From NCBI GenBank assembly GCA_951799425.1, contig OX637391.1:28267701-28331700 (forward strand): 64,000 nucleotides of DNA. The letters are read 5' to 3'. A program made the position numbers and the translations under genes. Under the pieces are notes generated by a model. It saw only the letters and a program-made list of their open reading frames with translations, was not told where the DNA came from and made no database searches. Position 1 is the first letter of the stretch. Each line of letters opens with the position of its first letter. Shown in pieces: positions 1 to 53,995 of the stretch. Origin of the DNA: Ilex aquifolium (taxonomy: Eukaryota > Streptophyta > Magnoliopsida > Aquifoliales > Aquifoliaceae).

Positions 1-8
1 ATTTAAAT

Positions 9-680
9 GTGAATGCATGTCCCAATCTGGCCCCTTTTCCAAATCGTTTGAAGCCACCCATGAAGGTGGCTAACTATTATGATATCATTGAGATGTTCAA
101 GCAGGTTAAGATCAACATCCCACTTGTCGATGCCATAAAGCAAATCACGTCATGTGCCAAGATCTTGAAGGACTTGTGCACATTGAAGAGGAAACTAAAT
201 GTGCACAAGAAGGCATTCCTCACCGAGCAGGTGAGCTCAATCTTGAGGACCAACACACCACCAAAGTTCAAAGACCTCGGCTGCCCTACCATTGCAATTA
301 CAATAGGGAATTTTTGGGTGGAGCAAGCACTTCTTGATTTGGGGGCAAGTGTCAACCTCCTGCCCTACTCGGTGTATCAACAACTCCAACTTGAAGAGTT
401 GAAGCCAACTCCAATCACTCTTCAATTGGCGGACCGAAGCATTGGAACACAAAGGGGAGTAGTTGAGGATGTTTTAGTCCAAGTTGATAATTTTTATTTC
501 CCTGTTGATTTTATTGTGCTTGAAACTCACTCGGTTGCTAACCCTAGTTCAAAAAATTCCGTCATATTAGGTAGATCGTTCCTTGCTACTTCTAATGTTG
601 TGATTAATTGTAGGAATGAACTTATGAAACTTACTTTTGGGAATATGACAATGGACTTCAATGTTTTCAACTTGACTTAA
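9..680 (+). pseudogene. Element A: Gag end and aspartic protease fragment
   Basis: This is the end of an Athila-type Gag-protease polyprotein cut by the window start. Residues 110-114 are DLGAS, the form the retropepsin catalytic motif takes in this lineage, followed by [12 protein letters not shown] and later VILGRSFLATSN, the conserved second half of the protease fold. The wording is close to the same region of element B (minus strand, around 22.5 kb). The protease would cut the polyprotein inside the virus-like particle. Part of a fossil element; no complete gene is present here. Confidence 0.85.
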
Positions 681-798: not shown

Positions 799-2816
799 TG
801 TAACACCCCAAAACACACCCTGGACGGCATTACATTCTAAGACCATTCACAACATGAGAGCACTAATATAATTTCATCAATAAGAGAAATTTTCCATTCA
901 TCCTCCATAAAACTTACAATATCATCCCAAAAGAATAAGCCAAGCTATGGCCTTTACATTTCAAAAATCAACTAATGTAGCGCAGTGGAAATAACAAAAG
1001 AAAACTAGACATCACAAGGTTCAAAATGAATATCCTAGTCTAGAACAAAAGTAAGCGACATCTCTAGAGGTCCCACTCGGGATCCAAGTATCCCTCTAGT
1101 GAAGCCTCTCCATGGCCCAGCTCATTAGCACCGAGCTCATTCTCTGGCACCAAATCTGAAAAATGTTCAACTGTAGGGGGTGAGCACAAAGCTCTGTAGA
1201 AAAATCCTCCCAAACCCAAACAAGGTTTAGAAAAGTATATAAAACAAGTCGGTCTCATTTCACAATTAACATATATAAGATTTGAAGTAAAAACAAGGAC
1301 ATTTAAACAATTCTCAAGTTTAAGCCGTAACAATAATCCAGTGAAAGGTTGTATATTGGTTCATCCCCGTACCATGTATGTTGATTGCTTCTCATGAATC
1401 TACCCAACGATTATACCTAGTCCACCAATCACTATCACAATCACCAACATTTTAGGAAAGGGCGTCTACCATCCCAATGGCAGTGACGAGTCCCTTCCCA
1501 GGAAAAGTATACCATCCCTTGTTCGAACTCCAGTGAACGATAGTGGTCCCATTACCAAATGACAACCCACTACAAGTGTTAGGAAACCATCTCACCCCCA
1601 CTGGGATAGACTAACATCTAACACTCTACGGCATCTCTCGATGACAATCCAAGTCCATCACAACAACCATACCAATGAGGAAACCAAAATATTCTCATTT
1701 TACAAGCATTTCTCAAAAATCCCCAAATTTAGAATGAGACAATTTCAATAACCCATTTTAAGAAAAATACAAGAGATCATTCCACATCATTTTATCACTC
1801 AACACAAAGCACTATAGTTTCGAAATCAATAATAAAGGAAGAAATTTGGAAGAAAATTCATCCCTCTCCAAAACTAGGGTTTTAAAGCAAGTAAAGAGAT
1901 TTCATGGGTATTCAACCCTCACTTTGTTTAAATCATGTAATCTTTACAAAAAGACTAAGAGAGGATGATTTCATATCATATATATATCATTTAGGGCAAA
2001 ACATACATATATAAATAAGCCCTAAGCCTCAATGAAAGAATTTGAGAAGAACCCCCTACCTTGCTTCTTTAGTTTTTGAGTGAAGAAGATGAAGATTGGA
2101 TCTTCTTCAATATGCAAATCTACCCTTGATCTTGTGTTTTCCCTTTCTTTCTTCCTCTCTAAACCTTTCTAGGGTTTTAAATGTTGAAATGGGGCTTATA
2201 AGAGTGTCCTTAAGTATTTATAGGGGAAGAATTGGCCTCCTGTGCGCGATTCTAAAGTTCAGAATTCGCAAGTCACGTTCGAACGTCATTGGCGTTCGAA
2301 CGTTCGTCACTCCCAGTACTTTTGTTTTTCCATCAAACAAAGAGTACTGGGATGCACTTTCGTTCGAACGTCATTGGCGTTCGAACGTCACTAGTGCAAA
2401 TTATTGATTCACGTTCGAACGTTATCCCAGTTTCTGCTTAAACTTTCAGTGAAGTTTTGGCCTATTTAGAGATTGATTTGGAAAATTTCCATGAAATACA
2501 CTTTTGTAGCCCTGGATGTCTACTATCTACTGTCAAAATTTCAGATCAATTGGAAGTCAGGATAAAAAGTTATGATCCAAACACTAAGGCAGTGTCTAAA
2601 ATTCTTCTACCTAAAATATCTCTCAAATGCGATTTCACTCCAAAATACTTCCAACTTCCTACGACATACACTATTACCTCCACTAACCTTTTATTTCTAC
2701 TCTTATCATCTACGTAGCTCATGCATACATCATTACATATATATTCGCATTTCAAAAACATAATTACGTTACTATATATCTATATACATATATAAAAGAA
2801 AATGCGGGGTGTTACA
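799..2816 (-). mobile_element. Solo LTR, Tekay-like chromovirus (copy 1)
   Basis: On the plus strand it starts tgtaacaccccaaaac and ends gcggggtgttaca, the inverted TG...CA ends of a 2.0 kb LTR. It is flanked by near-identical 5-bp sequences (aatct, 794-798; gatct, 2817-2821) and interrupts element A between its reverse transcriptase tail and RNase H. The minus orientation follows from copy 3 (58549-60743), where the purine tract and chromodomain lie on its right. A TATA box (tatttata, 2215-2222) reads on the minus strand. With no internal region, this is a solo LTR left by LTR-LTR recombination. Confidence 0.88.
2215..2424 (-). promoter_or_regulatory. Tekay LTR promoter: TATA box and upstream GTTCGAAC palindromes
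   Basis: The TATA box at 2215-2222 (TATAAATA on the minus strand) is preceded, in the sense of transcription, by five copies of the perfect palindrome GTTCGAAC at 2277, 2294, 2362, 2379 and 2413. A block reading cccagtactttt, then a spacer, then agtactgg lies between the pairs. The same arrangement occurs in the other two Tekay LTRs and inside element B at 17421-17742. A regulatory role is inferred from position only. Confidence 0.6.
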
Positions 2817-4645
2817 GATCTTCTATGCCATGATATAATATTTGAATGGAACAATGCATGTCAATTAGCATTTGATAAATTAAAAAATATGCTTATTTCT
2901 GCGCCTATCATGCAACCTCCTGACTGGTCCTTACCTTTCGAGTTAATGTGTGATGCAAGTGATTATGCAGTAGGAGCTGTATTAGGTCAAAGAAAAGATA
3001 AAAAAAACCATATGTTATTTACTATGCAAGCAAAACTCTAAATGATGCACAAATGAACTATTCAACCACAGAAAAAGAATTACTTGCTGTTGTGTTCGCA
3101 TTAGATAAATTCCGATCATATTTGGTTGGATCGTCAATTGTTGTATTTACAGATCATGCAGCTTTAAAATATTTACTTACTAAAAAAGATGCGAAGCCAC
3201 GTCTCCTGCGTTGGATTTTGTTACTTCAAGAATTTGATCTTAGAATTAAAGATAAGAAGGGAGTAGAAAATGTGGTAGCAGATCACTTGTCAAGGTTAGA
3301 TTATGATATAAAGGAAGAACCAACTCCAATTAGAGAAACCTTTCCAGATGAACAACTATTTGCAATAACCGAAGTACCATGGTATGCTGATATAGCCAAT
3401 TATTTAGCTACTGGTACTATTCCTTCTAACTATACCTGGACTGATAAAAATAAGTTCCTAAGTGAGGTACGTATTTTTTTCTGGGAAGATCCTTATGTGT
3501 TTAAATATTGTAAAGATCAAATAATAAGACGTTGTGTGCCTAATCATGAAATCAGTCAGGTTATTCAGTTTTGTCACTCTAAAGCTTGCGGAGGTCATTT
3601 TGCTTCAAAGAAAACCGCTGCTAAAATTATGCAGTGTGGATTTTACTGGCCAACTCTTTTTAAAGATGTTTATATCTTTTGTTTAAACTGTGACAGATGT
3701 CAAAGAATGGGGAATATTTCGAAAAGAAATATGATGCATTTAAACCCTATTTTAGTTATTGAAATTTTTGATTGCTGGGGCATCGATTTTATGGGACCAT
3801 TTCCCCCATCCTTTGGATATCTATATATTTTGGTTGCAGTTGACTATGTTTCTAAATGGGTAGAGGCAATCCCATGTAGAAATAATGATCACAGAACAGT
3901 GATCAAGTTTTTAAAAGAAAATATTTTATCCATATTTGGGATTCCTCGAACAATCATCAGTGATGGTGGATTACATTTTTGTAATAAATTTTTTGAAAAC
4001 CTGATGAAAAAATACTTGATTTCTCATAAAATATCCACCCCGTATCATCCGCAGACAAATGGACAAGCTGAATTAGCTAATAGGGAGATAAAATACATTT
4101 TAGAAAAAACAGTAAATCCTGATCGTAAAGATTGGCCTTTAAGATTAACGGATGCACTGTGGGCTTACCGTACTGCGTATAAAACTATTCTAGGAATGTC
4201 TCCTTATCGGTTATTTTATGGTAAACCATGTCATTTGCCTATAGAATTAGAGCATAAAGCATATTGGGCAATCAAAATGATGAATCTTGATATAGATGAA
4301 GCTGGAATAGCACGGAAATTGTAAATAAATGAAGTAGAAGAATTAAGAAATGAAGCCTATGAAAACGCAAAGATTGCTAAATCAAGAACAAAAGTTTTTC
4401 ATGATAAAAATATCATGAGAAAATCTTTTGAACCATCTCAAAAAGTTCTACTGTATAATGCTAAACTTCGTTTATTCCCTGGAAAATTAAGATCTAGATG
4501 GACAGGACCTTATATAGTTAAGCAAGTTTTTGACTATGGGGCAATTGAAATTGAAAATCCATTAACTGGAAATATTTTCAAAGTAAACGGGCAAAGACTT
4601 AAACCTTATTATAATGGATTCACTCAAGATGTAACTTCTGTGTAA
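2817..4645 (+). pseudogene. Element A: RNase H and integrase region of pol
   Basis: Recognisable parts in order are: RNase H ([19 protein letters not shown], then [23 protein letters not shown] and VADHLSRL); the integrase zinc-binding HHCC region ([10 protein letters not shown] ... CDRCQRMGN); the DDE core ([28 protein letters not shown]); and the C-terminal end [13 protein letters not shown]. RNase H removes the RNA template and integrase joins the cDNA to the host chromosome. The order and wording match B's pol protein throughout. This is a broken fossil with a few breaks. Confidence 0.85.
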
Positions 4646-4999
4646 CTTTTTGATCCAGTCTATGTGTGTTAATTGTTATTTAAATAATATAACTAATTAT
4701 TTGTAATTTATTTGACAGATTAAATCTCCTAAGTGAAAGCCAGATATCTTAATCGTTGAACGACAACAAATTGCTGGTTTTTCTCAATGCTGCTTATTAC
4801 TGTTTTAACATTACAAATAGAATTTAATTTAAGTTGGGGAGATCGGAGTGTGAATTTACTCATTGTTTTTAGCATAATAATTTTTATTTAAAAATTCAGT
4901 TCGTCTTTGTGACAGGCAGACGTAAAAGAATCGGATAGTAAGTCAACTTTTAATAATTTTTGAGTAAATTTTTTTCTTTTCTTTCTTAAAAGTTAAAAA
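4646..4999 (+). other. Element A: non-coding spacer with an internal purine tract
   Basis: No ORF is evident. The short purine-rich stretch aagttgggga at 4831-4840 resembles the 3' polypurine tract of these elements but lies between pol and the next ORF. Equivalent tracts occur after pol in B (18609-18623) and D (43693-43705). Confidence 0.5.
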
Positions 5000-5404
5000 A
5001 TGGACGAAAAATTATTTTGGTTAAGTTTAATAATATTACGTCATTTTCCAAAAGATATACATATGTTGATCATGCAAAAAGCTAGACATGTTAGAAATTT
5101 AGAAATATTCGAAAATCAAGCAAGACCCTTGTGTGGAAAAAGTACATATGCTAAACACCGACGAGCAAATCGTCTCTGTGCTTGTGTAAGATGTGGTCGT
5201 ACAGAACATTTGAGACAATATAATCAGTGTGCGGAACCAATTTTAGGTCGAGCATCAGATCGTTTACGGTGGATTAGGTATGGGCAGAGTAAGGATTTTC
5301 CTGAGGCGCCATCCTATTCTACCCCAATGTTAACAAGATACGTGAGAACTAAAGTTAACCGCGTCACTGGTGTTGTTGATCCAGATAGTTCTGATACTGA
5401 CTAA
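5000..5404 (+). CDS. Element A: small cysteine-rich, carlavirus-CRP-like protein
   Basis: A 134-residue basic protein encoded between pol and the env-position ORF. It is colinear with the minus-strand protein at 18000-18410 in element B: both begin with a hydrophobic stretch (MDEKLFWLSL here), then PLCG(K/R)S, a basic run (YAKHRRANRL here) and a C-x2-C-x4-H-x6-C cluster (CVRCGRTEHLRQYNQC), ending in an acidic tail. From recall, this order resembles the cysteine-rich nucleic-acid-binding proteins of carlaviruses (G-x-S-x-Y-A-R-R-R-R-A followed by C-x2-C). A role in nucleic-acid binding is inferred; silencing suppression would be speculation. The start at 5000 is chosen because it aligns with B. 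It could also be a divergent Gag-type zinc knuckle. Confidence 0.65.
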   Translation: MDEKLFWLSLIILRHFPKDIHMLIMQKARHVRNLEIFENQARPLCGKSTYAKHRRANRLCACVRCGRTEHLRQYNQCAEPILGRASDRLRWIRYGQSKDFPEAPSYSTPMLTRYVRTKVNRVTGVVDPDSSDTD

Positions 5405-5604
5405 ATATGATCAACAAGATGTGGAATTTTGGAAATAATTGTACATAGCTGTAAATAAATGTAAATAACTATAGAATAAGTAGAAAAACCAGTAAATAAA
5501 AAATAGCAAATAAAGAAATAATAAAACCAATTCTTTGAAACAAAAAAAAAAGAGTGGTTAGCAAAGTTTTGTAGAATATATGGAGTGGTATTTAATTTTA
5601 TAAC
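5405..5604 (+). other. Element A: spacer ending in a possible splice acceptor
   Basis: This AT-rich spacer shows no ORF. It ends with tttataacttgcag, about 10 bases before the first ATG of the following ORF, which fits a plant 3' splice site. Spliced expression of the env-position ORF is described for Athila relatives, so a subgenomic spliced RNA is plausible. I could not identify the donor. Confidence 0.3.
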
Positions 5605-6768
5605 TTGCAGGAGCAGAATTGCAGAAATTCAGAGAGACAATTTGCAGTTACAAATCAGGAACCAGTCAAAAATATGGATGCAAGAAAACGAACAAGAAGG
5701 TCTTCTAGCCGAGCACAAAATGATCAATCTCCATCACCTCAGGCACCTCCACAACAACCTCATCCAGGAAACATCTATGATGAGGTGATGTTTGAAAATC
5801 TTGAACAACAGGTCTGGTATGATGCAAACTTTATCTCTAAAACCATCATTGTGGAACGACCGGTTATTTACGAAGATTTTACAAATATAGGAATCAAACA
5901 AATTCTAGATGCAAGAGGATGGTTACATTATATCAGAATATATGTTCCTGCCTATGACTGCCTAGTGCGAGAATTTTATAGTAATGCTGACATAATTGGA
6001 AAAAGACAATTACGTGTTTTCGTCCGAGGTGTTGTTTTTCAAGTTACACCGGCTACTATAGCCGAATTTTTTCATTCCATGCAAAAACCACCCCACCCAC
6101 AATATCCCTACACTGAACTACCTGATTTGCATGAAGTAAGGAGAGAATTGACAAGAAATCCAAGACTTGTTTGGGGATGCCCAAAGAACTACATAAAACA
6201 AGGGGACCTAACAGACAAATACAAAATTCTCAGTTTAATAACAACATACAGTTTACTACCTCGTGCTCCAAAGAATCTACTTTATACTGAGCAAGCTTAT
6301 TTTCTATATGCATTAGGGATGGGACACACCATCGACCTGCCAAACTTAATTATGGACCAAATGTTACTTACAGTCAATAGAAAGAAACTCTCACTCCCAT
6401 ATGCTATGTTAGTTTCTGAGTTATGCCGGGACAAAGGTGTGATCACTAATCCGACATGGAAAACAGTGGAACCTCTTGGAGCATTGGACAAAACTTCATT
6501 AAAGAAAAGTCATGGAGTACGAATGAAAAACCAACCTGAAGCATCACCTGAACCACAAGAAGAACCATTCCAAGTACCTGAGGAATTCATATCATTGACA
6601 CCACAAGAAAATCAACCATACATATCAAGGGACGACAGAACGGATAGACAAATTTTACTAGAGATGGAAGCCAATATTACTCAGATCAACAGACGCCTGG
6701 AGGAATATGAGCAAAATCAAGTACAGTTCTTTAGAGAATGTTTCGAAGCAGGATCTTCTGCTTCCTAA
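5605..6768 (+). CDS. Element A: env-position ORF, plant transposon protein domain
   Basis: A 387-residue protein in the env-like third position. The core (about residues 55-310) contains VREFYSNADI, VFVRGVVFQVTPATIAEFF, LTDKYKILSLI and FLYALGMGHTIDLPNLI. This pattern matches, from recall, the 'putative plant transposon protein' / Athila ORF-1 type domain. The N-terminus is basic (RKRTRRSSSRAQ) and could act in nuclear targeting; the C-terminus (ILLEMEANITQINRRLEEYEQNQ) looks like a coiled coil. I see no signal peptide or transmembrane segment, so an envelope function is not supported. B (16244-17203) and D (46619-47923) carry homologues. The reading frame looks whole; its function is unknown. 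Confidence 0.75.
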   Translation: MQEQNCRNSERQFAVTNQEPVKNMDARKRTRRSSSRAQNDQSPSPQAPPQQPHPGNIYDEVMFENLEQQVWYDANFISKTIIVERPVIYEDFTNIGIKQILDARGWLHYIRIYVPAYDCLVREFYSNADIIGKRQLRVFVRGVVFQVTPATIAEFFHSMQKPPHPQYPYTELPDLHEVRRELTRNPRLVWGCPKNYIKQGDLTDKYKILSLITTYSLLPRAPKNLLYTEQAYFLYALGMGHTIDLPNLIMDQMLLTVNRKKLSLPYAMLVSELCRDKGVITNPTWKTVEPLGALDKTSLKKSHGVRMKNQPEASPEPQEEPFQVPEEFISLTPQENQPYISRDDRTDRQILLEMEANITQINRRLEEYEQNQVQFFRECFEAGSSAS

Positions 6769-10427: not shown

Positions 10428-12382
10428 TGATGGCTTGATCCAAATGTATACACCCAAGTGCAGGCGGTCAAGCTGTAGTAATAATCCGGTTTGAGTCCGG
10501 AGTCGAATCCACAGGGAACTTTTGTTGATATTTCTAAGGCAAGCAGTGGTAAATACCTTTTGATTGTAACCTTTTTGATTTGCTGTGAGATATGGGTTTT
10601 GCTGGACAGAATACAAGATTCTTTCCAGAAAGATTTTCTTAACAAAATAAGAGATGAATGCTAATTAAAAAGAGTCACCCTTTAGTGCAAGGATCTGGAC
10701 ATGTAGTTAGTTATCCGGTTTGTCATAATTGTGCTTGATAACTCAATTAACTCCCGTGTCAACAGCAAGTTAATCGGAAGATAAAGATGGATTGTGAGAA
10801 TTAAGAACATGATTCCGATGTCTTTCTAGAAGTTTACAAGAATTGCCTGTGCGGAGACTTAACCCGTCTACAAACAAGCAAGTGTTTCTACAAGACATCC
10901 AATCATGATATTAATAGTCCATTCTTTAAATGAAGTACATTAAGGGGAGAGATTGAAGGGTAGTCATGAGGATCTAGCCGGGGTACTTGCCTTGAACTGA
11001 TGAGTCTTTCTATGCAGGAGTCATCCATGTCATAGAAAGAGCTCACAATTATACAAAGTACCTTAGCTTTGCAAGATGCAATCAATCATCCGATAACAAG
11101 AAGAAATAAACGTTAAGCATAAAAGAACATTGCACAAATATGATTCCCGGATAACTTGTACATGCCTTTCTCCTCTCACTAAAGAGTGAATGAGAAATTA
11201 CTCACTCTTCATGGCTTGGGTAAAGCTAGAAAAGTGAGTGATGCTCATCCCTCCAAGTGGAGAACTTTAAAAGATAAAGTAACAACAAACGCGGAGCGAA
11301 TCTTCCACAAAGAATGAGTGAATCACGTTCCACCCTTCACAGCTTTAATCAAGCTCTAGAAAAGTGGAAGAATTTCACTCTTCTAAGAAAGAAGGAAACT
11401 CAAGCAATGAAAGTGAAATGCATGAACAATAAAAGTAGAAGAAAGCTAGTCACATTTGGAGGGTGGCTTCCTCAACCAAAGATTGGAGGGTTGCTTCCTC
11501 AACCAAGATGGGAGCTATTTCTCTTCTATGCATGAGAAATGAAAGCATAAACATAAGCATAAGCATAAAACTACTGTTATAACAAGCAAGAGATGTTGGG
11601 CTAAAGCCAAACTAATCTCTAAAATAAAGACTTCATAAGGAAAATGAACTAACTACAATGAGAGTGGGAGTCTAAGCCTCCATCACTATCTACTTCCTAC
11701 TATGCTCTCCTTTTAGCTCTCCAACAAGGGGAGTATTTATAGGCAAGAGGAGGAGGTAGGGGGGGTGAAAGAATAGTGTTTGCCGCCCAAGTCCAAGTGA
11801 ACAGTCAACAACTCTACTGCCAGTCTGTGGATAACGTTCGAACGTGAATTGGCGTTCGAACGTTCTTTCTATTTTTGCACTGAGGGCGTTCGAACGTTGA
11901 CTGCCGTTCGAACGTTTCTTCTTGTTTTGGCACTAAGGGCGTTCGAACGCCAGCTTTGCTCTGACCCTTTTCACTCGAGTGATCTGTGGTCTTGTGTGGA
12001 GTTCAGTTCCAACTCTCTGCAGTGGTCTGGTCTTCCATCAACTCAAGTGCACGTTCGAACGTGAGTTGGCGTTCGAACGTGCACTCAAGTACTTCAGAGC
12101 TCCAGTCTTCTTTCCTAACTGCAACACGCCTTCTCTTCAGCAGTTGAGTCTGCTACAGTGTATTGTGGACGTTCGAACGTGAGTTGGCGTTCGAACGTTC
12201 TGGCTGTGCTCCAAGCTTCTCCAATTTTGGGCTCTAATGTACTGGTGCTGCATCCAAGTGTGGTACTTGTTGTTCTTGGGTCCTTGTTCAGTTTAGGGCC
12301 TGAAATGACATCACTTAAACTCCATTAAAGTACCATTAGTCTTAAAATGTCATAATAATATGTCAACTTTAAGTACTAATCA
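10428..12382 (-). repeat. Element B 3' LTR
   Basis: It begins on the plus strand tgatggcttgatccaa and ends aagtactaatca, and is nearly identical to 26509-28463. It is followed on the right by the purine tract (minus reading TAGGTTGGGGAGTG), so it is the 3' LTR of the minus-strand element. Short ORFs inside it are LTR sequence and not genes. Confidence 0.92.
11734..12196 (-). promoter_or_regulatory. Element B 3' LTR promoter module: TATA plus GTTCGAAC array
   Basis: The TATA box (tatttata, 11734-11741) reads TATAAATA on the minus strand. Upstream of it in the transcription direction lie nine copies of GTTCGAAC between 11836 and 12196. Several are paired as gttcgaacgtga(g/a)ttggcgttcgaac, so two palindromes sit about 18 bases apart. 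The 5' LTR has the same module at 27815-28275 and would drive the genomic RNA. Confidence 0.6.
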
Positions 12383-12399
12383 CACTCCCCAACCTAAAT
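12383..12399 (-). promoter_or_regulatory. Element B polypurine tract
   Basis: The minus strand reads ATTTAGGTTGGGGAGTG directly before the LTR start TGATTAG. This is the plus-strand DNA primer position for reverse transcription. An actagagactag stretch just upstream is also kept in A, D and E. Confidence 0.8.
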
Positions 12400-12454
12400 A
12401 TTGCTAGTCTCTAGTAATATGAAAAAGAAAATTCTACTCCTAATGCCATTTTCG

Positions 12455-16243: not shown

Positions 16244-17203
16244 CTGGTGCTAGGTCTCTCACCTGCTGGCTGATCTCCTTCTCCTCCCATCTCTCTCTCC
16301 ATCTCATCAAGCTCCTTGGGCCGGGGGCTCTTCTTGCCTTGCCGCCGGGACGCCACTATGACTTTGGCTTCTCCGGAATGAAGCCTTGTTCAATGGCCCC
16401 ATTGGCTTCTGGATTTCCATCTCAGGCTTTACCCTTACCCCATGCTCCGTGCACATTTCAGTCACCAAAGTCGCAAAAGGGAGTGGATTCCTTTTTACAT
16501 CACATCCCTTCTTCATTTCACTCAAGATGAGAGAGGGAAGGTCAATGCTATGTCCCTTGCCAATGGCATACAGAAGTCGGGCCATATCAGGTAGAATCTC
16601 ATTCTTTCTTCCTAAGGGAGCGAAGTTGGACACCGTAATCAAATTCAACATCTTATACTTGTCAGTGAGCTCCCCTTGCTTAAAAAATTTCCTCCCTACC
16701 CATGAAAAGTCAGCTATCCCTATCAACTCCTTTCCTACCACAGTCATTGCTACATTCTTCTTTGGTGGGTAGGTAGGGTTTTGCACCCGGGGTATTTCTT
16801 CCCTTATTTCCCCAATGTATGCTTCGTCCACGTCAATGTGGGTACCCCTAACATATGTCTGTATTACGCCGTTGATTATCTCAGCGTCGGAGTAAAACTC
16901 CTGCACCAATTCAACAATGGCGTCTCCACCATTTCTCAAATACCATACTCACTCCCTCCTCTCCATTTCTTGCTTTATACCAATCTCAGCAAAATCATCA
17001 ATCACAACATCCATCTCACAGACAATAGCATGCTTACGGTAAAAATTTTCATACCTCTCAGCCTTCAAGGCATTAGGAAATCTGGTTCTGTCATACGTCT
17101 TGGTCCTTTGCCTTCCTCCCCTTTCTTCAATCACTTCTTCTACCATGTTTGGGTCTTGATTCACTGGTGGAACACGCCTGGCAGGAAGTTTCATCCTTGG
17201 CAT
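16244..17203 (-). pseudogene. Element B: env-position ORF, main part
   Basis: This is the homologue of the env-position ORF of element A (5605-6768). Shared wording includes EFYSDAEII, QTYVRGTHIDVDEA, QGELTDKYKMLNLIT, LLYAIGKGHSIDLPSLI and LPFATLVTEMC, the plant-transposon-protein type core. The N-terminal part is basic (MPRMKLPARRVPPVNQDP). A TATA box and a palindrome array lie 220-540 bases upstream (17421-17742). The solo LTR at 14334-16243 separates it from its C-terminal tail. It is a broken fossil with a few breaks. Confidence 0.7.
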
Positions 17204-17420
17204 GGCGTTCGAACGTGAGTTTGATTTGGGAGGGTCCTGAAAAGTTCTGGAACTTAGGGTTCAAGGTCTGGGATTGATGATTTTGATGTGGGGAGGAGTT
17301 AGGGAAGGTCGAATTTGGATATTCTTGGGGAATGAGGGCAAGTTGAGGTCTGTGGGGTGAGAATGAGATCTAGGGTTTTGGAAAAAATTGGGGATTTTGG
17401 CTGAAAACTACGAACCAGGC

Positions 17421-17742: not shown

Positions 17743-17999
17743 GAACCACAAATTAAAATTTTCTCTATTGCACTATATACAATCAAAGAAGACAAAACAC
17801 ACCAATTTAATTCAAAAACTACGGCGTCTCAGGATGAACCCCTACCCACGCTTCAGGTTGGTATTTTGGGGCATTCCTTACTCGGCCCATATTTTCATTT
17901 TAGTCAAAAAGAAATTTATACAAACATAATTTTACAACAAATTCGGACCTTTGGCATTCACTCCCCCAACGAAAGTACACATTTCCTACAGAAAATTAT
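17743..17999 (-). other. Element B: spacer
   Basis: AT-rich spacer between the palindrome array and the small cysteine-rich ORF. No ORF or motif was recognised. Confidence 0.4.
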
Positions 18000-18410
18000 C
18001 TAATTTGAATCTCCCTCTGTGTCTGTGTAAAATGGACAACCAGTAACTCTCCCAACTTCCTCTCTCACAAATCGGTTAAGCACAGTACCGGAATAGCATG
18101 GCGTATCAGGGTAATCCTTACTCAGCTCATTCACTATCCAGTCTAATCGATCAAGTGCGCGACCAGAAATTGGTTCAGAACACTGGTTGTACCTTTTTTC
18201 GTGAAAGTATCTGCCACACTGTTTACAGGCACCAAGCCTTTTTGCACGACGGCGTTTGGCAAAGCTACTTCTGCCACAGAGGGGTTTCGCTTGTTTTTCT
18301 TTGATTTCAGCCTTCCTTACTAATCTTGCTTTTCTCATGATCATGGTATGTACATCAGATGGAAAAGTACGTAAGACTCCTAGGCTAAACCAAAAAAGAT
18401 TTACATCCAT
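18000..18410 (-). CDS. Element B: small cysteine-rich, carlavirus-CRP-like protein
   Basis: A basic protein of about 136 residues, homologous along its length to the one at 5000-5404 in A. The start at 18410 (MDVNLFWFSL) is chosen because it aligns with A; a further ATG lies five codons upstream. The centre reads AKPLCGRSSFAKRRRAKRLG, then CKQCGRYFHEKRYNQC (C-x2-C-x4-H-x6-C) and SEPISGRALDRLDWI. By recall, the order PL-G-x-S-x-F-A-K-R-R-R-A, C-x2-C-x-R, then I-S matches carlavirus cysteine-rich proteins such as the potato virus M 11-kDa protein. Those bind nucleic acid and affect host silencing or transcription; a similar role here is only inferred. The frame looks whole. Confidence 0.68.
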   Translation of the reverse strand: MDVNLFWFSLGVLRTFPSDVHTMIMRKARLVRKAEIKEKQAKPLCGRSSFAKRRRAKRLGACKQCGRYFHEKRYNQCSEPISGRALDRLDWIVNELSKDYPDTPCYSGTVLNRFVREEVGRVTGCPFYTDTEGDSN

Positions 18411-18995
18411 GATTGCTAGACTCACTATCTGGTTCTTTAACGTCTGCCAGTCACAAAGACGATTGAGGCTTATTTATAAGCATAATCAATTTATACAATC
18501 AATGGTCAAACATAATCAACAATGACAATAAATTTTTTTTTAAAAAAATTGCGAAAATTATGAACGAAAATTAACTGAACGATAATGAACTAACTGATGA
18601 ACTGATCATACCCCCCAACCTAAACTGAACATTGTCCCCAATGTTTCGAATTTACCGGTTCATGGAGTGTGGAGACGAGGTTGAATGGTAGAGATCTGTT
18701 CACCACTGAGACCTACAAATAAAAACACCAAAAATTACTCATCTGTGCGCAGATCTGGATTTCGGGTAGGCTGAAAATCCTTATGTGTGAGTGCGAACAA
18801 GAGAAGAACACCCGTGAGCAAATATAAGATTAAAATGCTAAACAGGAAGCAAAATATCGTGTTTGTGGAGTGTGTGGTCATGGGTGTTTTCTCGGGTAAC
18901 AGAGACTCGAAGACTAACAGAAGAAGAAGAAAAGAAGAAGAAGAAGAACAAAAGGGGGAGGGCCAACTGCGGCGGCTGGGGAACACGTGGGCGCC
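18411..18995 (-). other. Element B: spacer with internal purine tract
   Basis: Non-coding DNA between pol and the small ORF. The minus strand carries TAGGTTGGGGGGT (18609-18623) shortly after CATTGGGGACAATG, the same pair of motifs found in D (43665-43705) and E (52555-52590). This could be a second start site for plus-strand DNA synthesis. Confidence 0.5.
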
Positions 18996-21968
18996 TTATA
19001 AAGGCGCCCCAGTGGGTCGGGTTGGAGTAGATATTTCCTGACCCGATCCACTGGAGTGTCGGCAGGCGCGAATTTCGGAGGAGTACTCTGGTTCCATTAA
19101 AAGAATGGTTTCCACATTTCTAACAAAATCCTCCAAAAATGGTTTTAACCTCTGACCATTAACAGTAAAATTATTACCGTTTGCTGGGTTTTCCACTTCA
19201 ACTGCTCCGTGTTCAAACACCTTTTTCAGAATGTAAGGCCCAGCCCATCTTGATTTCAACTTACCAGGGAAGAGGCGGAGTCTTGAATTGAATAGCAAGA
19301 CTTTTTGAGATGGCTCAAAAGATTTCCGCACAATGTGTTTGTCATGAAAGATTTTCATCCTGGTTTTAGCAATCTTAGCATTTTCATATGCTTCATTTCT
19401 CAATTCCTCCAATTCATTTATCTGAAGTTTCCTTGTTAGCCCAGCCTTGTCTAAGTCAAAATTCATTGCTTTAATGGCCCAGTATGCCCTATGTTTCAAT
19501 TCCACAGGCAAGTGACATGACTTTCCATAGACTAATCGATAAGGAGACATGCCCAAAATTGTTTTAAAAGCAGTTCGGTATGCCCAGAGTGCATCAGTCA
19601 GTCTTAATGACCAATCTTTGCGATCTGGGTTCACCGTTTTTTCCAAAATTAATTTGATCTCCCGATTAGCTAACTCAGCTTGTCCACTGGTCTGTGGGTG
19701 ATAAGGGGTTGCAATTTTGTGAAAAATCAAGTATTTTTTCATTAAATTCCAGAAGGGACGATTGCAAAAATGAGCACCCCCATCGCTTATGATTGACTTC
19801 GGAATTCCAAATCGGGACAAAATATTTTCTTTTAAAAATTTGATCACTGTTTTGTGATCATTGTTTCGGCATGGAATTGATTCAACCCATTTGGATACAT
19901 AGTATACAACCACTAAAATGTATAGATAGCCAAAGGAAGGGGGAAATGGTCCCATAAAATCGATGCCCCAACAGTCAAAAATTTCAATTACCAGAATGGG
20001 GTTTAAGGGCATCATATTTCTTTTAGAAATGTTTCCCAACCTTTGACACCTATCACAAGTTAAACAAAAGGCATGGACATCTTTGAAAAGTGTGGGCCAG
20101 TAAAATCCACACTGCAATATTTTTGCAGCTGTTTTTCTTGATGAAAAGTGGCCACCACATGCTTCAGAATGACAAAAAGTTATTACCTGGCTACTTTCAT
20201 GAGCAGGGATGCAACGTCTTATGATTTGATCTTTACAGTATTTGAATACGTAAGGATCCTCCCAAAAGAAGTTACGTACCTCCCTCAGAAATTTCTTTTT
20301 GTCCAACATGGTAAAAGATGGAGGGAGTGTATCAGTAGCAAGAAAGTTAGCAATGTCTGCATACCATGGTGTCTTATCAATCATGAACAGTTGTTCATCG
20401 GGGAATTTCTCATTGATTGGTAGTCCATCCTCATGAAATTCATAGGTTAGTCTGGATAGATGATCTGCCACCACATTCTCGACGCCTTTCTTGTCCTTAA
20501 TGACAAGATCAAACTCTTGGAGCAAAAGTATCCATCTCAAGAGTCTCGGTTTGGCGTCCTTCTTTGTGAGCAAAAATTTTAGAGCTGCATGGTCAGTGAA
20601 TACAGTAACAGAAGAACCAACAAGATAAGAACGGAATTTTTCCAGTGCAAAAACTACAGCAAGCAATTCTTTCTCAGTTGTTGAATAATTCATTTGGGCA
20701 TCATTCAAAGTTTTACTTGCATAGTAAATCACATGGGGTTTCATATCTTTTCTTTGTCCCAATACAACACCTACAGCAAAATCACTTGCATCACACATTA
20801 GTTCAAAAGGAAGATTCCAGTCAGGAGGTTGCATTATTGGTGCAGAAATTAACATGTCTTTTAGCTTGTCAAAGGCTTTTTGGCATGCTTCATTCCAATC
20901 AAATATTACATCCTGACTTAGGAGGTGACACATTGGTTTTGCTATGGTACTGAAATCTTTTATGAATCTCCTGTAGAACCCTGCATGACCTAGGAATGAT
21001 CGAACATCTTCTACAGTCTTAGGGGCAGGCAAATTTCCAATCAAATCAATTTTTGCCTTGTCAACTTTCATGCCTTCAGACAACACGATGTGACCAAGAA
21101 CAATGCCCTGTGTTACCATAAAATGACATTTTTCCCAATTGAGCACTAGGTTGGCTTCCTTACATCTGATCAGTACTTTCTCCAGATTGGTTAAACACAA
21201 GTCGAAGGAATCACCATAAACAGAGAAGTCATCCATAAATACTTCCAAAAAATTTTCAACCATATCACTGAACAAGCTTAGCATACATCTTTGGAATGTT
21301 GCAAGAGCGTTACAAAGTCCAAATGGCATCCTTTTGAATGCAAAGGTGTCAAAGGGGCATGTGAAGGTTGTTTTCTCCTGATCATCTAAGGCTATCTCAA
21401 TTTGGTTATACCCTGAATATCCATCCAGGAAACAGTAAAATGCATGGCCAGCAATTCTCTCTAGGACTTGGTCAAGAAATGGGAGAGGAAAATGATCTTT
21501 TCTAGTGACTAAATTGAGCTTTCGATAATCAATGCACATTCGCCATCCTGTGACGACTCGAGTTGGTACTAGTTCATTTGCATCATTTTTTACCACTGTG
21601 ACCCCAGATTTTTTTGGCACAACCTGGGTTGGACTGACCCATTTACTATCTGAGATAGGGAAGATTATCCCTGCATCTAAGAGTTTGAGTACCTCAATTC
21701 TCACAACTTCCTTCATGTGAGGATTCAATCGTCGCTGTATTTGACGAGAGGGTTTTGAGTCCTCTTCAAGGTATATGGCATGATTGCAGATTAACGGGCT
21801 TATACCTTTCAAGTCAGCGATGGTCCATCCAATGGTACTTTTATGACTTCGAAGAACTTCAAGCAATTTAGACTCTTGCAAGTCTGTGAGTTTAGATGAA
21901 ATTACCACTGGGTATGACTCATTCTTTCCTAAGAATGCATATTTGAGGTCAGATGGGAGAGGTTTCAA
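18996..21968 (-). CDS. Element B: pol (reverse transcriptase, RNase H, integrase)
   Basis: A 990-residue Athila-type Pol. Reverse transcriptase spans about residues 75-345, with MCIDYRKLN (144-152), [11 protein letters not shown] (180-190) and the active-site FMDD (244-247). RNase H spans about 385-505, with likely catalytic D393, E433, D459 and D502. Integrase follows: the zinc-binding region (H600, H607, C638, C641), the DDE core with D670, D729 and E765, and a C-terminal part ending [13 protein letters not shown]. No chromodomain is present, as expected for Athila. It copies the RNA to cDNA and inserts it. The ORF is open throughout; it follows gag-protease directly. Confidence 0.9.
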
Positions 21969-24392
21969 TTCAGGCTTTGGTGGGCTAACACTTGATGAGA
22001 CTGGCTTTGTGCCACTTGGTGAAATTCTTCGAATTTGAGTGCCCAGGTCTCAACAGTATGAGTAGGGTCACTTGGTGGTTTTGGGTCATCATCTGTTATT
22101 TCTGATGAGATGAGTTCTAACAGAGATGATTCAGCAGGATCCTCACAGAATGTATCATCCAGATGTTCCTGTATCAAAGATTCTATGGAGTGTACTTCCC
22201 TTTCTTCCTTTTCCTCTTCTGGATGTTTAGCAATATTGAAAATGTTCATTTCGAGAGTCATATTCCCAAAAGTTAATTTCATGACTCCATTCCTGCAATT
22301 GATTAAAGCATTGGAAGTTGCTAGGAATGGTCGACCAAGAATGACGGGAATTTGGTTCTCCGAATTTATTGCTGGTTGAGTATCCAGAACAATGAAGTCA
22401 ACAGGGAAGACAAAACTATCTACTTGGACAAGTACATCTTCAATAATCCCTCTGGGGATTTTGACAGATCTGTCAGCCAACTGGAGTGTGACACAAGTGG
22501 GTTTAAGTTCTCCCAAACCCAACTGTTGATACACAGAATAGGGTAGCAGATTAACGCTGGCTCCAAGGTCTAACAAGGCTTGTTCAATTCTGAAGTTTCC
22601 AATGATACATGAGACAGTCGGACATCCTGGGTCTTTGTATTTTGGAAGGGTTTTCTGTTGGAGAAGAGCACTAGCTTGTTCCGTTAGGAAAGCTCTTTTT
22701 TGGACTTTCTGGCTTCTCTTGACTGTGCACAAGTCTTTTAGAAACTTGGTATAAGGCGGGACTTGTTTGATTGCATCCAGAAGTGGGATGTTGATATTTA
22801 CTTGCTTAAAAAGCTCGTAAATTTCAGGCTGATTTTTCACTTTCTGTTTGGCTCTGTGTCGATGAGGAAATGGAGCCGGAACGGGATACGAAGGTTCCTT
22901 TTTCTCAGAAGGTTCTGACTCTTGTTCAATCACAGGCTCAGGGTCTTTCTCAATTGGTTCAGGTTCAGATGATGGATTGACTGGGCTTGACTCAGGTCTT
23001 GGCTTGGGAATGAGTATGTCTCTGATTGTTTTGTCAATCACTTTGCCACTTCTTAGGGTCGTGACAGCTTGGGCTTGGTCTTGGGTGTTTCCTGTTGTTG
23101 AAGGGTTTCCTACATGGAATTGGCCTTGTGGTTGTTTTGGTTGAGCAGGAAATTTTCCTTTTTCGTGTGTGACCATGGATTGAGTCAACTTTTGGATGTG
23201 GCTTTTAAGATCCTCAAAAGATTGAGTGGTCTGGGTTTTGAAATCAGTGAAAGCCTGTGTGGAATTATTGTTATAATTCATTTGGCTTTGCATGAACTGA
23301 TTTAATGTGTCCTCAAGGTTCCTCTTTTGTGGTGGTTGGTATGGTTGATATGCAGGAGGTCCTTGAGGTGGTGGGTATGGCCCTTGGTGTTGGTTCATGG
23401 GTATTGGTTGTGTGTTCTTCCAACTGAAGTTAGGGTGATTTCGCCATCCTGGATTGTATGTTTCAGAATATGGGTTGGAGTAAGGCTTGTTGAAGTTGGA
23501 AACTGCATGTGTTTGTTCTAACAAGACTTCTTTGAATGCTGGGATGGTGGGACACTCCCCAGTAGGGTGTCCTGTTAGCGCACAGATTCCACACACTTGC
23601 TCAGTGGAAGGGCTAACATCAACTTGATGGACTTTCTTCATCTCTAAAGCTTCGAGCTTTCGAGACAATGTGGACATTTTTGCTCTCAAGTCATCATCCT
23701 CTCTCAAGACATATTTTCCTCCTTGGGAATTAGATGGTCTGGCTTCTACAGTGGTAGGGGAGGCTGAGTCCCACATCTGAGAACTGTCAGATATGGTGTC
23801 GAAGAAATTGAATGCCTCCTCCGGACTTTTTCCCATGAATTCTCCTTGGGCCATCATTTCGACAAACTGACGTAGTCTAGAGGGTAAGGAGTCATAGAAA
23901 AATCCTACCAAAGTCCAATTTTCAAAAGCATGATGTGGGCAAGATTGGAGTAGATCTTTGAATCTCTCCCAACTTTGATAAAAAATTTCTCCTTCTTTGA
24001 CCGCAAAATTCATGATTTGCCTTTTTAATGCATTTGTGCGATGTAAAGGGAAAAACTTTCTAAAAAATTCATTTTGCAATGCTTGCCAATTGGGTATTGA
24101 AAAAGCCTTTAAAGAAGTCAACCATTGTTTGGCTCTATCCCTCAAAGAGAAAGAAAACAATTTCATTTTTGCCAATTCAGAATTGTCTTGAAATGTTCCA
24201 CACACTTCTTCGAAATCTTTGATATGCAGATATGGATTTTCTGCATCCAATCCATGAAACATGGGCAATAACTGCACTGTCCCCGGCTTTACAGTAAAGA
24301 GGGGAGCATTTTCAGGAAAAATAAAACAAGAGGGGACACTATTTCTTGTGGGATTCAAGTAATCCCGCAAAGTTCGGATGTTAGGGACTTCC
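21965..24392 (-). CDS. Element B: gag-protease polyprotein, main part
   Basis: The Retrotrans_gag domain ([18 protein letters not shown] ... [18 protein letters not shown]) is followed by a CCHC zinc knuckle ([14 protein letters not shown]), a long proline- and glutamine-rich linker, and an aspartic protease with [19 protein letters not shown] and [12 protein letters not shown]. An acidic tail follows. Gag forms the particle, and the protease processes it. The solo LTR at 24393-26231 inserted into the early part of gag, so the first residues of the longest ORF come from that LTR; the original start is at 26391. Confidence 0.88.
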
Positions 24393-26231
24393 TGATGAGC
24401 GCATAATATTGCATATTTGAAGGGCTCATTACATGCATTATAACTCAACTTTTGCATTTAAATACTTAGTGTTAGCCAAAATTGTCTATAATGTTGATAT
24501 TTTGATGTTGCAACCTTTTATAGCTTAAATGATTGATTTTAGGACATTGCAACCTTGATGGATGTGTGGTGAAGGCATGGACACAATACATGAAGAATTG
24601 GAGGCTTAAAAGTGAAGAAATCAAGAAGGCATTGGTGCTTGGGAACAAGGGCACCAGCTGCAGCAATAATTGGAAGCACTGCCTCGGAATTCCTCCATTT
24701 TGACCATGATCTACTCAGAATTTGGAAAAGTTAAAAACATGAAAGTTGTAGATATGGGTGTCTTCTGTTTGGTGTCAAAATTTCAGTCCAATCTAACGGT
24801 TAGATCAAGAGTTATGTCGATTCTACCGAAGGTGGTCCAGTGCAGAAAAACAGTACCGGTACCAAATGGTACCGGTACCTAGTACCGGTACTCCGGACCT
24901 TCTGGTCGCGAAAACAGCCTGTAACTCAACTTTGAGGCTTGGGGGTCCCACCTACACTTCTCCCACGCCTATCCCAACATTTCCTTACACATTTACAGGC
25001 CTCCTACACTCAAGTGGAAGACTTTAAAGGCCAATGCATTAAAGGAGGAATGGGGAGAAGTGGGCTGCCAGGGCTATGATCTCCTAGCCTGTCAAGCCAT
25101 CCATTCAGCCCTCTCTTGATGGGAGCTCGTTCACACAGCTAGGGGGGAGCCTCTTGGACGTTTTGGCATGTCTCTACACTCCATATATTTCAGCATTCAC
25201 AACACATTGGAGGGTTGGCTACCTAAGCTTAGGAGTAGAGATAGAAAGCTCCAAGGAGGAAGATGATGAATAGTATTTTCGTTTTTGAAATTTTCTTCTC
25301 CGTTTTTGTCGTAGTAAGCTTTCATACTCTTGTAATTCTTAATCCTTGCACTTTAATCTCATCTATTTCATGTTCATTTCAAGTTTAGCCTTGCACTTTA
25401 CTTTTCACCATTGTTATGCTTTCAAGTTCTTCATTTTTAGCTTAAAATGGGTTTTGAATATTTCTCTTCATAGCTTTAGATTTCTTGTTGTAAGTTAATT
25501 TTCATGCTTCATGTCTTCATTATATGTCTTTACATTATGCTTGTCTTTCTTTTATGCATGAGTAGCTAGCTTTTAAGTTGGTTAGTCCAAGGGTGAATTC
25601 CATTTGGGGATTCCATTCCAACTCTCGTTCATTCCTTCTCTCGGTGTATGTTGGCTCGGTTTGATTGGGTTGAGGGTGGATAAATTGATGAGTCTTTGAT
25701 ATTCCGTAGGCCTAGTCACGGTTTATGCTTGGATACTCACCATTTTATCCCTAGCTTCCCATGAATCAATCGTACTTCTAGGCACCATTGGAGGAAGGCT
25801 TTGAGTTGATTTGGTATTCCCATTGGAATGAACCCTTTGGATTAGCCAACACTTGCTTTATTTGCATTTTCATTCACAAACCAAACACAAAACTCAAATA
25901 CAAGATTTTACACTTTCTTTTCACTTTTGCAAAATCACTTTCATAAAACTCCCTTTCCTTCCCTGAGGAGACGACCTTGGAATATTTTCCAAGTAAAACA
26001 CACGACCACAAAAGACTCCTTTCGATTGGGGAGCATTTTTGTGCACACCGCATCTCATTCCATCTATTTTGTTCATCACATTTCCATTCACATCCATTTT
26101 GTTGTTGTTTCCTATCTTCTTGCATCATCCGGAGGGAGAGTGACACTCCCCCATCACTATAAGCCACATACACACATTGAGGGTGAGGGTGATGTTACGA
26201 GGTTAGGAACGACGTAATTACCAATCAATCA
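24393..26231 (+). mobile_element. Solo LTR of the E/D-related Athila family (copy H2)
   Basis: A 1,839-bp LTR from tgatgagcgcataat to ccaatcaatca, with perfect 5-bp duplications cttcc at 24388-24392 and 26232-26236. It is inserted in B's gag. It is homologous to 14334-16243 and 63196-64000, but in the shared palindrome slot it carries TACCGGTA words (three copies in 24853-24891) instead of TTCCGGAA. Confidence 0.9.
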
Positions 26232-26391: not shown

Positions 26392-26484
26392 AAAGAAAAT
26401 AAAACAAAGTTATTTACAGTAAAACAAAATATACACAATGTTGAAGGTCTTTTTACCTTTTACCTTAAAGCACCTTTCAAAGGT

Positions 26485-26502
26485 TCCCCGGCAACGGCGC
26501 CA
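26485..26502 (-). promoter_or_regulatory. Element B primer binding site (tRNA-Asp)
   Basis: The minus strand reads TGGCGCCGTTGCCGGGGA, complementary to the 3' end of plant tRNA-Asp (ending ...CCCCGGCAACGGCGCCA). It lies 6 bases inside the 5' LTR edge. This is the primer site reported for Athila/Calypso-type elements. Confidence 0.9.
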
Positions 26503-26508
26503 AAAACT

Positions 26509-28463
26509 TGATGGCTTGATCCAAATGTATACACCCAAGTGCAGGCGGTCAAGCTGTAGTAATAATCCGGTTTGAGTCCGGAGTCGAATCCACATGGAAC
26601 TTTTGTTGATATGTCTAAGGCAAGCAGTGGTAGAGACCTTTTGATTGTAACCTTTTTGATTTGCTGCGAGATATGGGTTTTGCTGGACAGAATACAAGAT
26701 TCTTTCCAGAAAGATTTTCTTAACAAAATAGGAGATGAATGCTAATTAAAAAGAGTCACCCTTTAGTGCAAGGATCTGGACATGTAGTTAGTTATCCGGT
26801 TTGTCATAATTGTGCTTGATAACTCAATTAAATCCCGTGTCAACAGCAAGTTAATCGGAAGATAAAGATGGATTGTGAAAATTAAGAACATGATTCCGAT
26901 GTCTTTCTAGAAGCTTACAAGAATTGCCTGTGCCGAGACTTAACCCTTCTACAAACAAGCAAGTGTTTCTACAAGACATCCAATCATGATATTAATAGTC
27001 CATTCTTTAAATGAAGTACATTAAGGGGGGAGATTGAAGGGTAGTCATGAGGATCTAGTCGGGGTACTTGCCTTGAACTGATGAGTCTTTCTATGCAGGA
27101 GTCATCCATGTCATAGAAAGAGCTCACAATTATACAAAGTACCTTAGCTTTGCTAGATGCAATCAATCATCCGATAACAAGAAAAAATAAACGTTAAGCA
27201 TAAAAGAACATTGCACAAATATGATTCCCGGATAACTTGTACATGCCTTTCTCCTCTCACTAAAGAGTGAATGAGAAACTACTCACTCTTCATGGCTTGG
27301 GTAAAGCTAGAAAAGTGAGTGATGCTCATCACTTCAAGTGGAGAACTTTAAAAGATAAAGTAACAACAAACGCGGAGCGAATCTTCCACAAAGAATGAGT
27401 GAATCACGTTCCACCCTTCACGGCTTTAATCAAGCTCTAGAAAAGTGGAAGAGTTTTACTCTTCTAAGAAAGAAGGAAGCTCAAGCAATGGAAGTGAAAT
27501 GCATGAACAATAAAAGTAGAAGAAAGCTAGTCACATTTGGAGGGTGGCTTCCTCAACCAAAGATTGGAGGGTTGCTTCCTCAACCAAGATGGGAGCTATT
27601 TCTCTTCTATGCATGAGAAATGAAAGCATAAACATAAGCATAAGCATAAAACTACTGTTATAACAAGCAAGAGATGTTGGGCTAAAGCCAAACTAATCTC
27701 TAAAATAAAGACTTCATAAGGAAAATGAACTAACTACAATGACAGTGGGAGTCTAAGCCTCCATCACTATCTACTTCCTACTATGCTCTCCTTTTAGCTC
27801 TCCAACAAGGGGAGTATTTATAGGCAAGAGGAGGAGGCAGGGGGGGTGAAAGAATAGTGTTTGCCGCCCAAGTCCAAGTGAACAGTCAACAACTCTGCTG
27901 CCAGTCTATGGATAACGTTCGAACGTGAGTTGGCGTTCGAACGTTCTTTCTGTTTTTGCACTGAGGGCGTTCGAACGTTGACTGCCGTTCGAACGTTTCT
28001 TCTTGTTTTGGCACTAAGGGCGTTCGAACGCTAGCTTTGCTCTGACCCCTTTCACTCGAGTGATTTGTGGTCTTCTGTGAAGTTCAGTTCCAACTCTCTG
28101 CAGTGGTCTGGTCTTCCATCAACTCAAGTGCACGTTCGAACGTGAGTTGGCGTTCGAACGTGCACTCAAGTACTTCAGAGCTCCAGTCTTCTTTCCTAAC
28201 TGCAACACGCCTTCTCTTCAGCAGTTGAGTCTGCTACAGTGTATTGTGGACGTTCGAACGTGAGTTGGCGTTCGAACGTTCTGGCTGTGCTCCAAGCTTC
28301 TCCAATTTTGGGCTCTAATGTACTGGTGCTGCATCCAAGTGTGGTACTTGTTGTTCTTGGGTCCTTGTTCAGTTTAGGACCTGAAATGACATCACTTAAA
28401 CTCCATTAAAGTACCATTAGTCTTAAAATGTCATAATAATATGTCAACTTTAAGTACTAATCA
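26509..28463 (-). repeat. Element B 5' LTR
   Basis: 1,955 bp, TG...CA ends, paired with 10428-12382. It carries the TATA box at 27815-27822 and nine GTTCGAAC palindromes between about 27916 and 28276. Confidence 0.92.
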
Positions 28464-53992: not shown

Positions 53993-53995
53993 AAA

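Follow-up and report, generated by a model that had tools for sequence, protein, structure and literature searches.

Two retrotransposons in a 64,000-nucleotide stretch of DNA (the window) carry, between pol and the ORF in env position, a small gene whose product is near certainly homologous to the nucleic acid-binding protein (NABP) of the Betaflexiviridae, a protein also called CRP or RNA silencing suppressor. In the element that we call B the ORF lies at 18000..18410 on the minus strand, stop included (coding 18410-18003, stop 18000-18002), and encodes 136 amino acids; in a second element, A, diverged from B, it lies at 5000..5404 on the plus strand, stop included (coding 5000-5401), and encodes 134. 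Both ORFs are intact and open, and their proteins are 56% identical. We put at about 60% the probability of the reading developed here, in which the ORF would be an accessory gene of Athila elements that is homologous to the betaflexivirus NABP, has spread by exchange, is expressed by splicing and acts against silencing. A first-pass annotation of the DNA had already likened the ORF of B to carlavirus cysteine-rich proteins and proposed an exchange between an RNA virus and a retrotransposon; as a whole that reading is supported, with the amendments given below.

Host elements and position of the ORF

By its content the window seems to be plant DNA, with abundant LTR retrotransposons. Element B (10428-28463, minus strand) is bounded by LTRs of 1955 bp with TG..CA termini, the 3' LTR at 10428..12382 and the 5' LTR at 26509..28463 (both minus), which are 98.2% identical; their 35 differences (25 transitions and 10 transversions of 1955) give a K2P distance of 0.018, and by this distance the element is young. 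Its flanks, GTTAC and GTTAT, resemble a 5-bp target duplication with one change. The primer binding site TGGCGCCGTTGCC, which we take to be of the tRNA-Asp type, is found at 26490..26502 (minus), 6 nt inside from the 5' LTR, and the polypurine-like tract TTTAGGTTGGGG adjoins the 3' LTR at 12387..12398 (minus) and occurs a second time at 18613..18624 (minus), between pol and NABP. From LTR to LTR the order is leader, gag-protease, pol, NABP, env-position ORF and 3' region. The gag-protease ORF (21965..24457, minus; Retrotrans_gag 4.1e-15, Asp_protease_2 2.9e-6) contains at 23552-23593 (minus) a CX2CX4HX4C motif, a knuckle by pattern only; the pol ORF (RT, RNase H and integrase; 18996..22049, minus, counted from the preceding stop) is open, and the env-position ORF (Transposase_32, PF20167, 1.5e-22; 16307..17260, minus) is broken by a single in-frame stop at 16949-16951.

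The order in A is gag-protease, pol, NABP and env-position ORF. The gag-protease part (1..680, plus) is cut by the window start, and pol is split by a 2-kb insertion (~798-2816), behind which its end (RNase H and integrase) lies at 2796..4645 (plus). A polypurine-like tract, TTTAAGTTGGGG, stands between pol and NABP at 4828..4839 (plus), and the env-position ORF (Transposase_32, PF20167, 1.4e-28; 5605..6768, plus) is open and preceded by what reads as a 3' splice-like sequence, TAACTTGCAG, at 5601..5610 (plus). The DNA match of the A and B NABP genes begins at the ATG.

By gene content we class the host elements as Athila-type Ty3/gypsy retrotransposons: B has gag, a PR-RT-RH-INT pol between LTRs and a tRNA-type primer binding site, and both A and B have, towards the 3' end, an additional ORF of Transposase_32/ATHILA ORF-1 type. 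The accessible part of PMC11728184 ties Transposase_32 to Athila ORF1, and that of PMC6317226 gives tRNA-Asp as one of the primers of non-chromoviruses; PF03078 itself had no match at E<=1 in the Pfam scan of the window ORFs.

Homology to viral nucleic acid-binding proteins

The ORF of B reads PLCGRSSFAKRRRAKRLG, then C-x2-C, then EPISGRA, as first described. PF05515 (Viral_NABP, curated cut-off 23 bits) is matched by B with an E-value of 1.7e-9 (38.4 bits) and by A with 7.9e-10 (39.5 bits), and PF01623 (Carla_C4, curated cut-off 20.9 bits) by B with 8.1e-6 (26.2 bits) and by A with 6.6e-6 (26.4 bits), both ORFs thus reaching the curated score of the viral NABP/CRP family. The PF05515 match spans ~97 residues and so is not confined to the basic run; the weaker Carla_C4 match spans 31-33 residues, namely the basic run and the first cysteine pair. 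The same scan found no further family at E<=10 in either ORF, gag zinc knuckles included. A gag zinc knuckle was considered for the cysteine cluster and rejected, because zf-CCHC did not match at E<=10 and a knuckle pattern is already present in the gag of B. The resemblance to viral CRPs noticed in the first-pass annotation is therefore real on these scores and on the clean controls described below: its significance extends across basic run and cysteine cluster alike, a gag knuckle is not a better match, and the same holds for the counterpart ORF of A. The GRY that the annotation took as conserved is not, since CGR occurs in 12 of 13 aligned relatives and the following residue varies (GRT in A).

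In B an Arg-rich run is followed by a CCHC-type module, CX2CX4HX6C behind RRRAKR, for which zinc binding is predicted and which recurs in 14 of the 16 relatives of the 136-aa family examined (zinc-motif counts, here and for the second family below, leave out the fragments P0015 and P0016 and three viruses). Behind the module DRLxWI is found in all 13 aligned relatives, and the similarity to the viral proteins takes in this stretch as well as a helix ahead. A search with the B protein alone gave 11 relatives among 23 candidates, on ENA or JGI contigs of 528-2941 bases; both Pfam domains are precomputed for all 11, and two are automatically annotated "Viral nucleic acid binding". The databases have noticed the domain, and a description of the element itself is, as far as we have seen, absent.

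A profile of 13 plant-type ORFs retrieved 21 proteins at E<=10 among 5.8 billion sequences and finds the proteins of Caucasus prunus virus (1.4e-12), apricot vein clearing associated virus (6.7e-11) and grapevine virus H (1.2e-6). An HMM built from the three virus proteins only was run against the 694 window ORFs (stop-to-stop, at least 40 aa) and matched B at 4.5e-21 and A at 1e-19 (E-values for the 694-ORF set), with no other ORF of the 694 at E<=10; none of the 694 reversed ORFs and none of 2000 shuffled copies matched at that threshold. Among 70 relatives that we chose from 137, the three virus proteins included, 68 match PF05515 and 66 match PF01623 at 1e-3. Over residues 17-68, which hold the helix, the basic run and the first cysteines, B is identical to the Caucasus prunus virus protein at 31/52 positions and to A at 32/52; over residues 17-100 the counts are 34/83 and 51/84, respectively.

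The pruneviruses, like the Athila ORF, have a helix of the form KAxLVRKxEIxEEQAxPLCG and then the Arg-rich run and the first cysteines in the same order, and grapevine virus H likewise has an Arg-rich run, a zinc module with His and a DRLDW tail at the place of DRLxWI. At the level of sequence, the homology shown here covers the helix, the Arg-rich run, the zinc module and the DRLxWI-type tail. The spacing of the zinc ligands differs, being CX2CX4HX6C in the 136-aa family, CX2CX4CX3C in the 182-aa family described below, CX1CX4HX4C in grapevine virus H and CX2CX12CX4C in the two pruneviruses. In Prunevirus and Vitivirus the NABP gene is the last one, behind the coat protein (PMC4472227, in its accessible part), whereas here it stands between pol and the env-position ORF. 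Viral NABP genes occupy the 3' end of positive-strand RNA genomes, and those described here sit in LTR retrotransposons; because of this location we treat the ORF as a homologue and not as a virus gene. The kinship with carlaviruses first proposed holds in so far as the Carla_C4 cut-off is passed over the basic run and the first cysteines, a comparison made by profile only. The nearest viruses found are pruneviruses and one vitivirus and not carlaviruses as such, with three named virus proteins in hand; the named sequence matches are these prunevirus and vitivirus proteins, and the same three are the virus members of the tree discussed below.

AlphaFold models were poor (pLDDT 47.4 for the first; pLDDT 60.6 and pTM 0.30 for the second), so that no fold is shown. 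With the second model as Foldseek query against viral models, a single match of 51 reached E<=0.001; it is a prunevirus suppressor and ranked first, at 5.8e-5. Of the 20 best matches, 16 come from plant viruses and bear the name silencing suppressor or nucleic-acid/RNA-binding protein; query TM-scores in those viral matches are 0.16-0.29. We take this as weak, sequence-like support from modelling and give it little weight.

Spread of the gene and direction of exchange

From 1967 candidates, a profile with virus and plant members retrieved 854 proteins at E<=10. Among the 120 matches listed of the 854, 115 fall by our grouping into a second family, mostly of ~182 aa, in which the named sources of 182-aa proteins are Populus x canadensis, Populus alba, Xanthoceras sorbifolium, Acer yangbiense, Orobanche hederae and Orobanche gracilis; single clusters among these listed matches stand for up to 566 member sequences. 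Of 116 second-family sequences examined, 112 have the zinc module CX2CX4CX3C, and a profile comparison of the 136-aa and 182-aa families gave a probability of 97.8% (E 1.3e-12, 87 columns). The 182-aa family suggests that the NABP gene is widespread in plants and not the curiosity of one genome.

The one locus with a 182-aa ORF that could be read, L001 (3330 bases), has an Athila-like pol end and, directly behind it, the ORF at 1799-2344. Its pol is 73% identical to that of B over 495 aa and 75% to that of A over 380. The ORF scores 34.2 bits against PF05515, above the cut-off, and 19.8 against Carla_C4, just below the 20.9 needed. A polypurine-like tract lies at 2595-2606, behind the gene, whereas in A and B it lies ahead of NABP, and by reading a Transposase_32 ORF is not evident in the remaining 1 kb. 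The gene is not the property of a single odd element, as this locus and the second family show. L001 lies in a record titled as a Candidatus Nomurabacteria MAG, where it is probably plant contamination of a public genome. Searches of IMG/VR with queries A1, A4, A5, P0020 and the pol of B yielded no loci, those of bacterial and archaeal genomes gave none with query A1 and one contig with query A4, and those of plasmids with the NABP of B and of phages with the pol of B gave none. A 182-type NABP of 272 aa from Orobanche gracilis (P0117) carries a further precomputed domain, PF03641, presumably the LOG/lysine decarboxylase family. Athila-like elements are reported to carry LOG-like genes among their extra ORFs.

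Taken at the level of sequence, these matches imply a gene exchange between betaflexiviruses and retrotransposons, in either direction and in one or more events, in line with what was first proposed. An unrooted tree of 37 sequences separates the 136-aa family (94/91) from the 182-aa family (100/98) and places the three viruses between them. Its bootstrap is unsettled, and the topology test does not reject a placement of the viruses on one side (p-AU 0.47 with core columns, 0.26 with all columns). The tree called for at the outset, with three virus sequences, fits either direction.

It is possible, though we rate it as clearly the less probable course, that the direction was the reverse of a viral gift: the gene would be old in Athila, a counter-defence gene ancestral to the prunevirus and vitivirus proteins, which betaflexiviruses would have acquired from a 136-aa-type retrotransposon. 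This bears on the gene's origin rather than on its function, and it is compatible with our best explanation. The position of the viruses between the two retroelement families agrees with it, as does the identity over residues 17-68 (at most 52 positions), where pruneviruses resemble the 136-aa family more closely (mean 55%) than the 182-aa family does (mean 38%); over residues 17-100 the same comparison leaves a small gap, 38% against 32%. The viral gene, moreover, is present or absent even within a genus of Betaflexiviridae (PMC4472227, as excerpted). NABP divergence also grows with pol divergence (residues 17-100 of NABP: A-B 51/84 with pol at 84%, B-L001 28/83 with pol at 73%, A-L001 24/83 with pol at 75%). 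As NABP diverges somewhat more quickly than proportionality with pol would give, the argument for descent within Athila is weak, and the growth fits either such descent followed by transfer to the viruses or two captures from viruses. Against the reversed direction stand the viruses-on-one-side tree already mentioned, the unsettled bootstrap, the small sample of three virus sequences with one on a long branch, and a warning of the topology-test program that long branches meet (the pruneviruses with the 182-aa family). The different order of the polypurine tract in A and B and in L001 fits two captures equally well. If the reversed direction were true, an important group of plant viruses would have received a weapon that had evolved in plant retrotransposons.

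The AlkB demethylase domain, with which this exchange may be compared, also occurs in cells. An orchid Ty3/gypsy element carries an AlkB/2-ODD accessory domain that is also found in Alpha- and Betaflexiviridae (PMC9289625, in part), likewise in a plant gypsy element; unlike that case, the NABP relatives named outside plants are virus proteins. The env of lokiretroviruses, which resembles mononegavirus glycoproteins (accessible part of PMC9040795), also reflects an exchange between a retroelement and an unrelated virus, but it is an entry gene, whereas ours is a small gene of nucleic-acid-binding/suppressor type shared with plant positive-strand RNA viruses. The aORF/eORF of Athila/Tat elements (Transposase_32/ATHILA ORF-1) is likewise an extra gene 3' of pol (PMC11728184 and PMC6317226, in part), but the portions at hand state no kinship to an RNA virus protein, and the NABP ORF is separate from Transposase_32. 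The present case offers an example of gene exchange between a positive-strand RNA virus and an LTR retrotransposon, and a lead to the ancestry of an accessory gene that varies even within virus genera (PMC4472227, in part).

Steinbauerova and others are said to have surveyed the extra ORFs of plant Ty3/gypsy elements. Most such ORFs are without known conserved domains (PMC9289625, in the part available); here one of them has clear relatives of studied role. No description of an NABP in a retrotransposon was found in the open-access literature searched, a corpus that most subscription papers and preprints lie outside, which agrees with the first-pass annotation, where none was known. The terms Viral_NABP, PF05515 and Carla_C4 had no matches in that literature, and the accessible portions of PMC7264820, PMC11728184, PMC9040795, PMC9289625, PMC3136472, PMC12786186, PMC3276544, PMC11963269, PMC6317226 and PMC4472227 mention no retrotransposon NABP.

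Selection, splice-like signals and proposed role

Comparison of A and B over 134 codons gives pS 0.625 and pN 0.311 for NABP, a dN/dS of ~0.30 (Fisher p 2.9e-7 on rounded site counts), which shows that the gene is under purifying selection. In the compared stretches of the other genes, pN between A and B is 0.10 for pol, 0.23 for gag-protease and 0.42 for the env-position ORF; silent sites are saturated.

Just 5' of the NABP ORF a noncoding block of 44 nt is conserved, at 18419..18462 (minus) in B and 4901..4944 (plus) in A, with 38/44 positions identical and a local score of 63, where the best of 500 shuffles reached 43. Its GGCAG resembles a 3' splice site and, 18 nt on, GTRAGTC after ATA resembles a 5' splice site (ATA/GTGAGTC in B and ATA/GTAAGTC in A, the junction after ATA). 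The spacer ahead of the block aligns no better than chance between A and B (144/500 shuffles equal), and the spacers behind NABP show nothing (490/500). An RNA structure for the block was considered and rejected, as 150/200 and 169/200 shuffles fold at least as well, which leans towards splice signals as its role; Rfam gave 0 matches on window positions 10000-29000. The block was not found in L001, and for that reason the splice model is not supported as a general one beyond A and B. Comparison of the spacers of A and B with L001 gave nothing clear (64/500 and 5/500 shuffles equal, the latter a pyrimidine-rich run).

We suggest that the NABP message would come from a spliced subgenomic RNA for which the 44-nt block serves as acceptor, and that the block may also be the donor for a further splice yielding the env-position message; this model is a reading of the sequence. 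The basic run would carry the protein into the nucleus, where it would bind element RNA or siRNA and blunt RNA silencing or RdDM, and the genomic RNA would thereby survive until packaging, as viral RNA does with the help of viral proteins. By analogy with the viral relatives, protection of element RNA from silencing is the most likely role of the Athila NABP. In the excerpted literature the protein is the silencing suppressor of grapevine virus A and, in vitiviruses, carlaviruses and some trichoviruses, is RNA-binding with a zinc-ribbon motif (both PMC4472227); the CRPs of potato virus M (PVM), chrysanthemum virus B (CVB) and sweet potato chlorotic fleck virus (SPCFV) suppress silencing (PMC12172455), and an Arg-rich NLS and CCCC or CCHC zinc fingers are features of CRPs from viti- and carlaviruses among others (PMC11213338). 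The shared gene may be an aid by which both kinds of element escape the same defence, and whether plant retrotransposons possess silencing suppressors of their own becomes a question directly testable with one small gene.

The main rival to the anti-silencing role is that the homologue handles RNA as retroviral Rev or nucleocapsid does, in export of unspliced RNA, in packaging or as a chaperone of reverse transcription, which we consider unlikely though far from negligible. The gene lies between pol and the env-position ORF, beside splice-like signals, and its protein is basic with a zinc module. Small regulatory genes of complex retroviruses occupy such positions. Set against this, the gag of B already has its CX2CX4HX4C pattern, and a third Transposase_32 ORF in env position, at 46895-47920, has no NABP match upstream, by which the gene seems dispensable for some elements, though this copy may be decayed; the viral relatives, too, are known as silencing suppressors (PMC12172455 and PMC4472227, in part).

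Two further readings have only a very slight chance and are already refuted, the first of them at the level of sequence comparison. A chance or convergent pairing of a basic run with a C-x2-C pair draws on the commonness of both features, on the naming of P0005 as "ribosomal protein L37AE/L43A" by one source and on weak phmmer matches to the ribosomal zinc proteins eL43/eL37 (9 chains at E<=1, best 0.026), but the E-values, the common order of segments and the clean reversed and shuffled controls oppose it, and the ribosomal zinc ribbon was rejected as a candidate since its matches vanish with the family profile, which hits no ribosomal protein at E<=1 (its two other matches are weak, 0.35 and 0.55). 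A single recent integration of viral cDNA into one element, leaving a functionless endogenous viral fragment, has a precedent in flexivirus-like sequence in a cucumber chromosome (PMC3136472, in part), but two diverged elements carry the gene at one place, its relatives are many, A and B are under purifying selection and no other virus gene lies beside NABP among the Pfam-scanned ORFs.

Several repeats accompany the elements. A 1.9-kb internal direct repeat of B, in the leader (24395-26233) and the 3' region (14336-16245), is 78% identical overall and 95-96% in parts; its copies were considered as the LTRs of B and rejected, the primer binding site being absent after them and the outer pair having both primer binding site and polypurine tract. 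Inverted, this repeat resembles the 99%-identical LTRs of another element (48488-50516 and 53991-56016). That pair, spanning 48488-56016, is 99.1% identical with only ~3.5 kb between, and the primer site TGGCGCCGTTGCC recurs at the inner edge of one of its LTRs (53980-53992, minus); the element is likely a non-autonomous relative. A 2-kb repeat family is represented at 798-2816, the copy within pol of A, and at 31461-33617 and 58549-60743. The palindrome CGTTCGAACG occurs 41 times against ~0.06 expected by simple 4^-10 counting, often paired at a distance of 17-19 bp, and may be a shared regulatory site. It lies in the two LTRs of B, in the stretch from the NABP to the env-position ORF of that element, and in three members of the 2-kb repeat family (regions 2276-2412, 11835-12188, 17206-17731, 27916-28269, 33091-33211 and 60223-60343).
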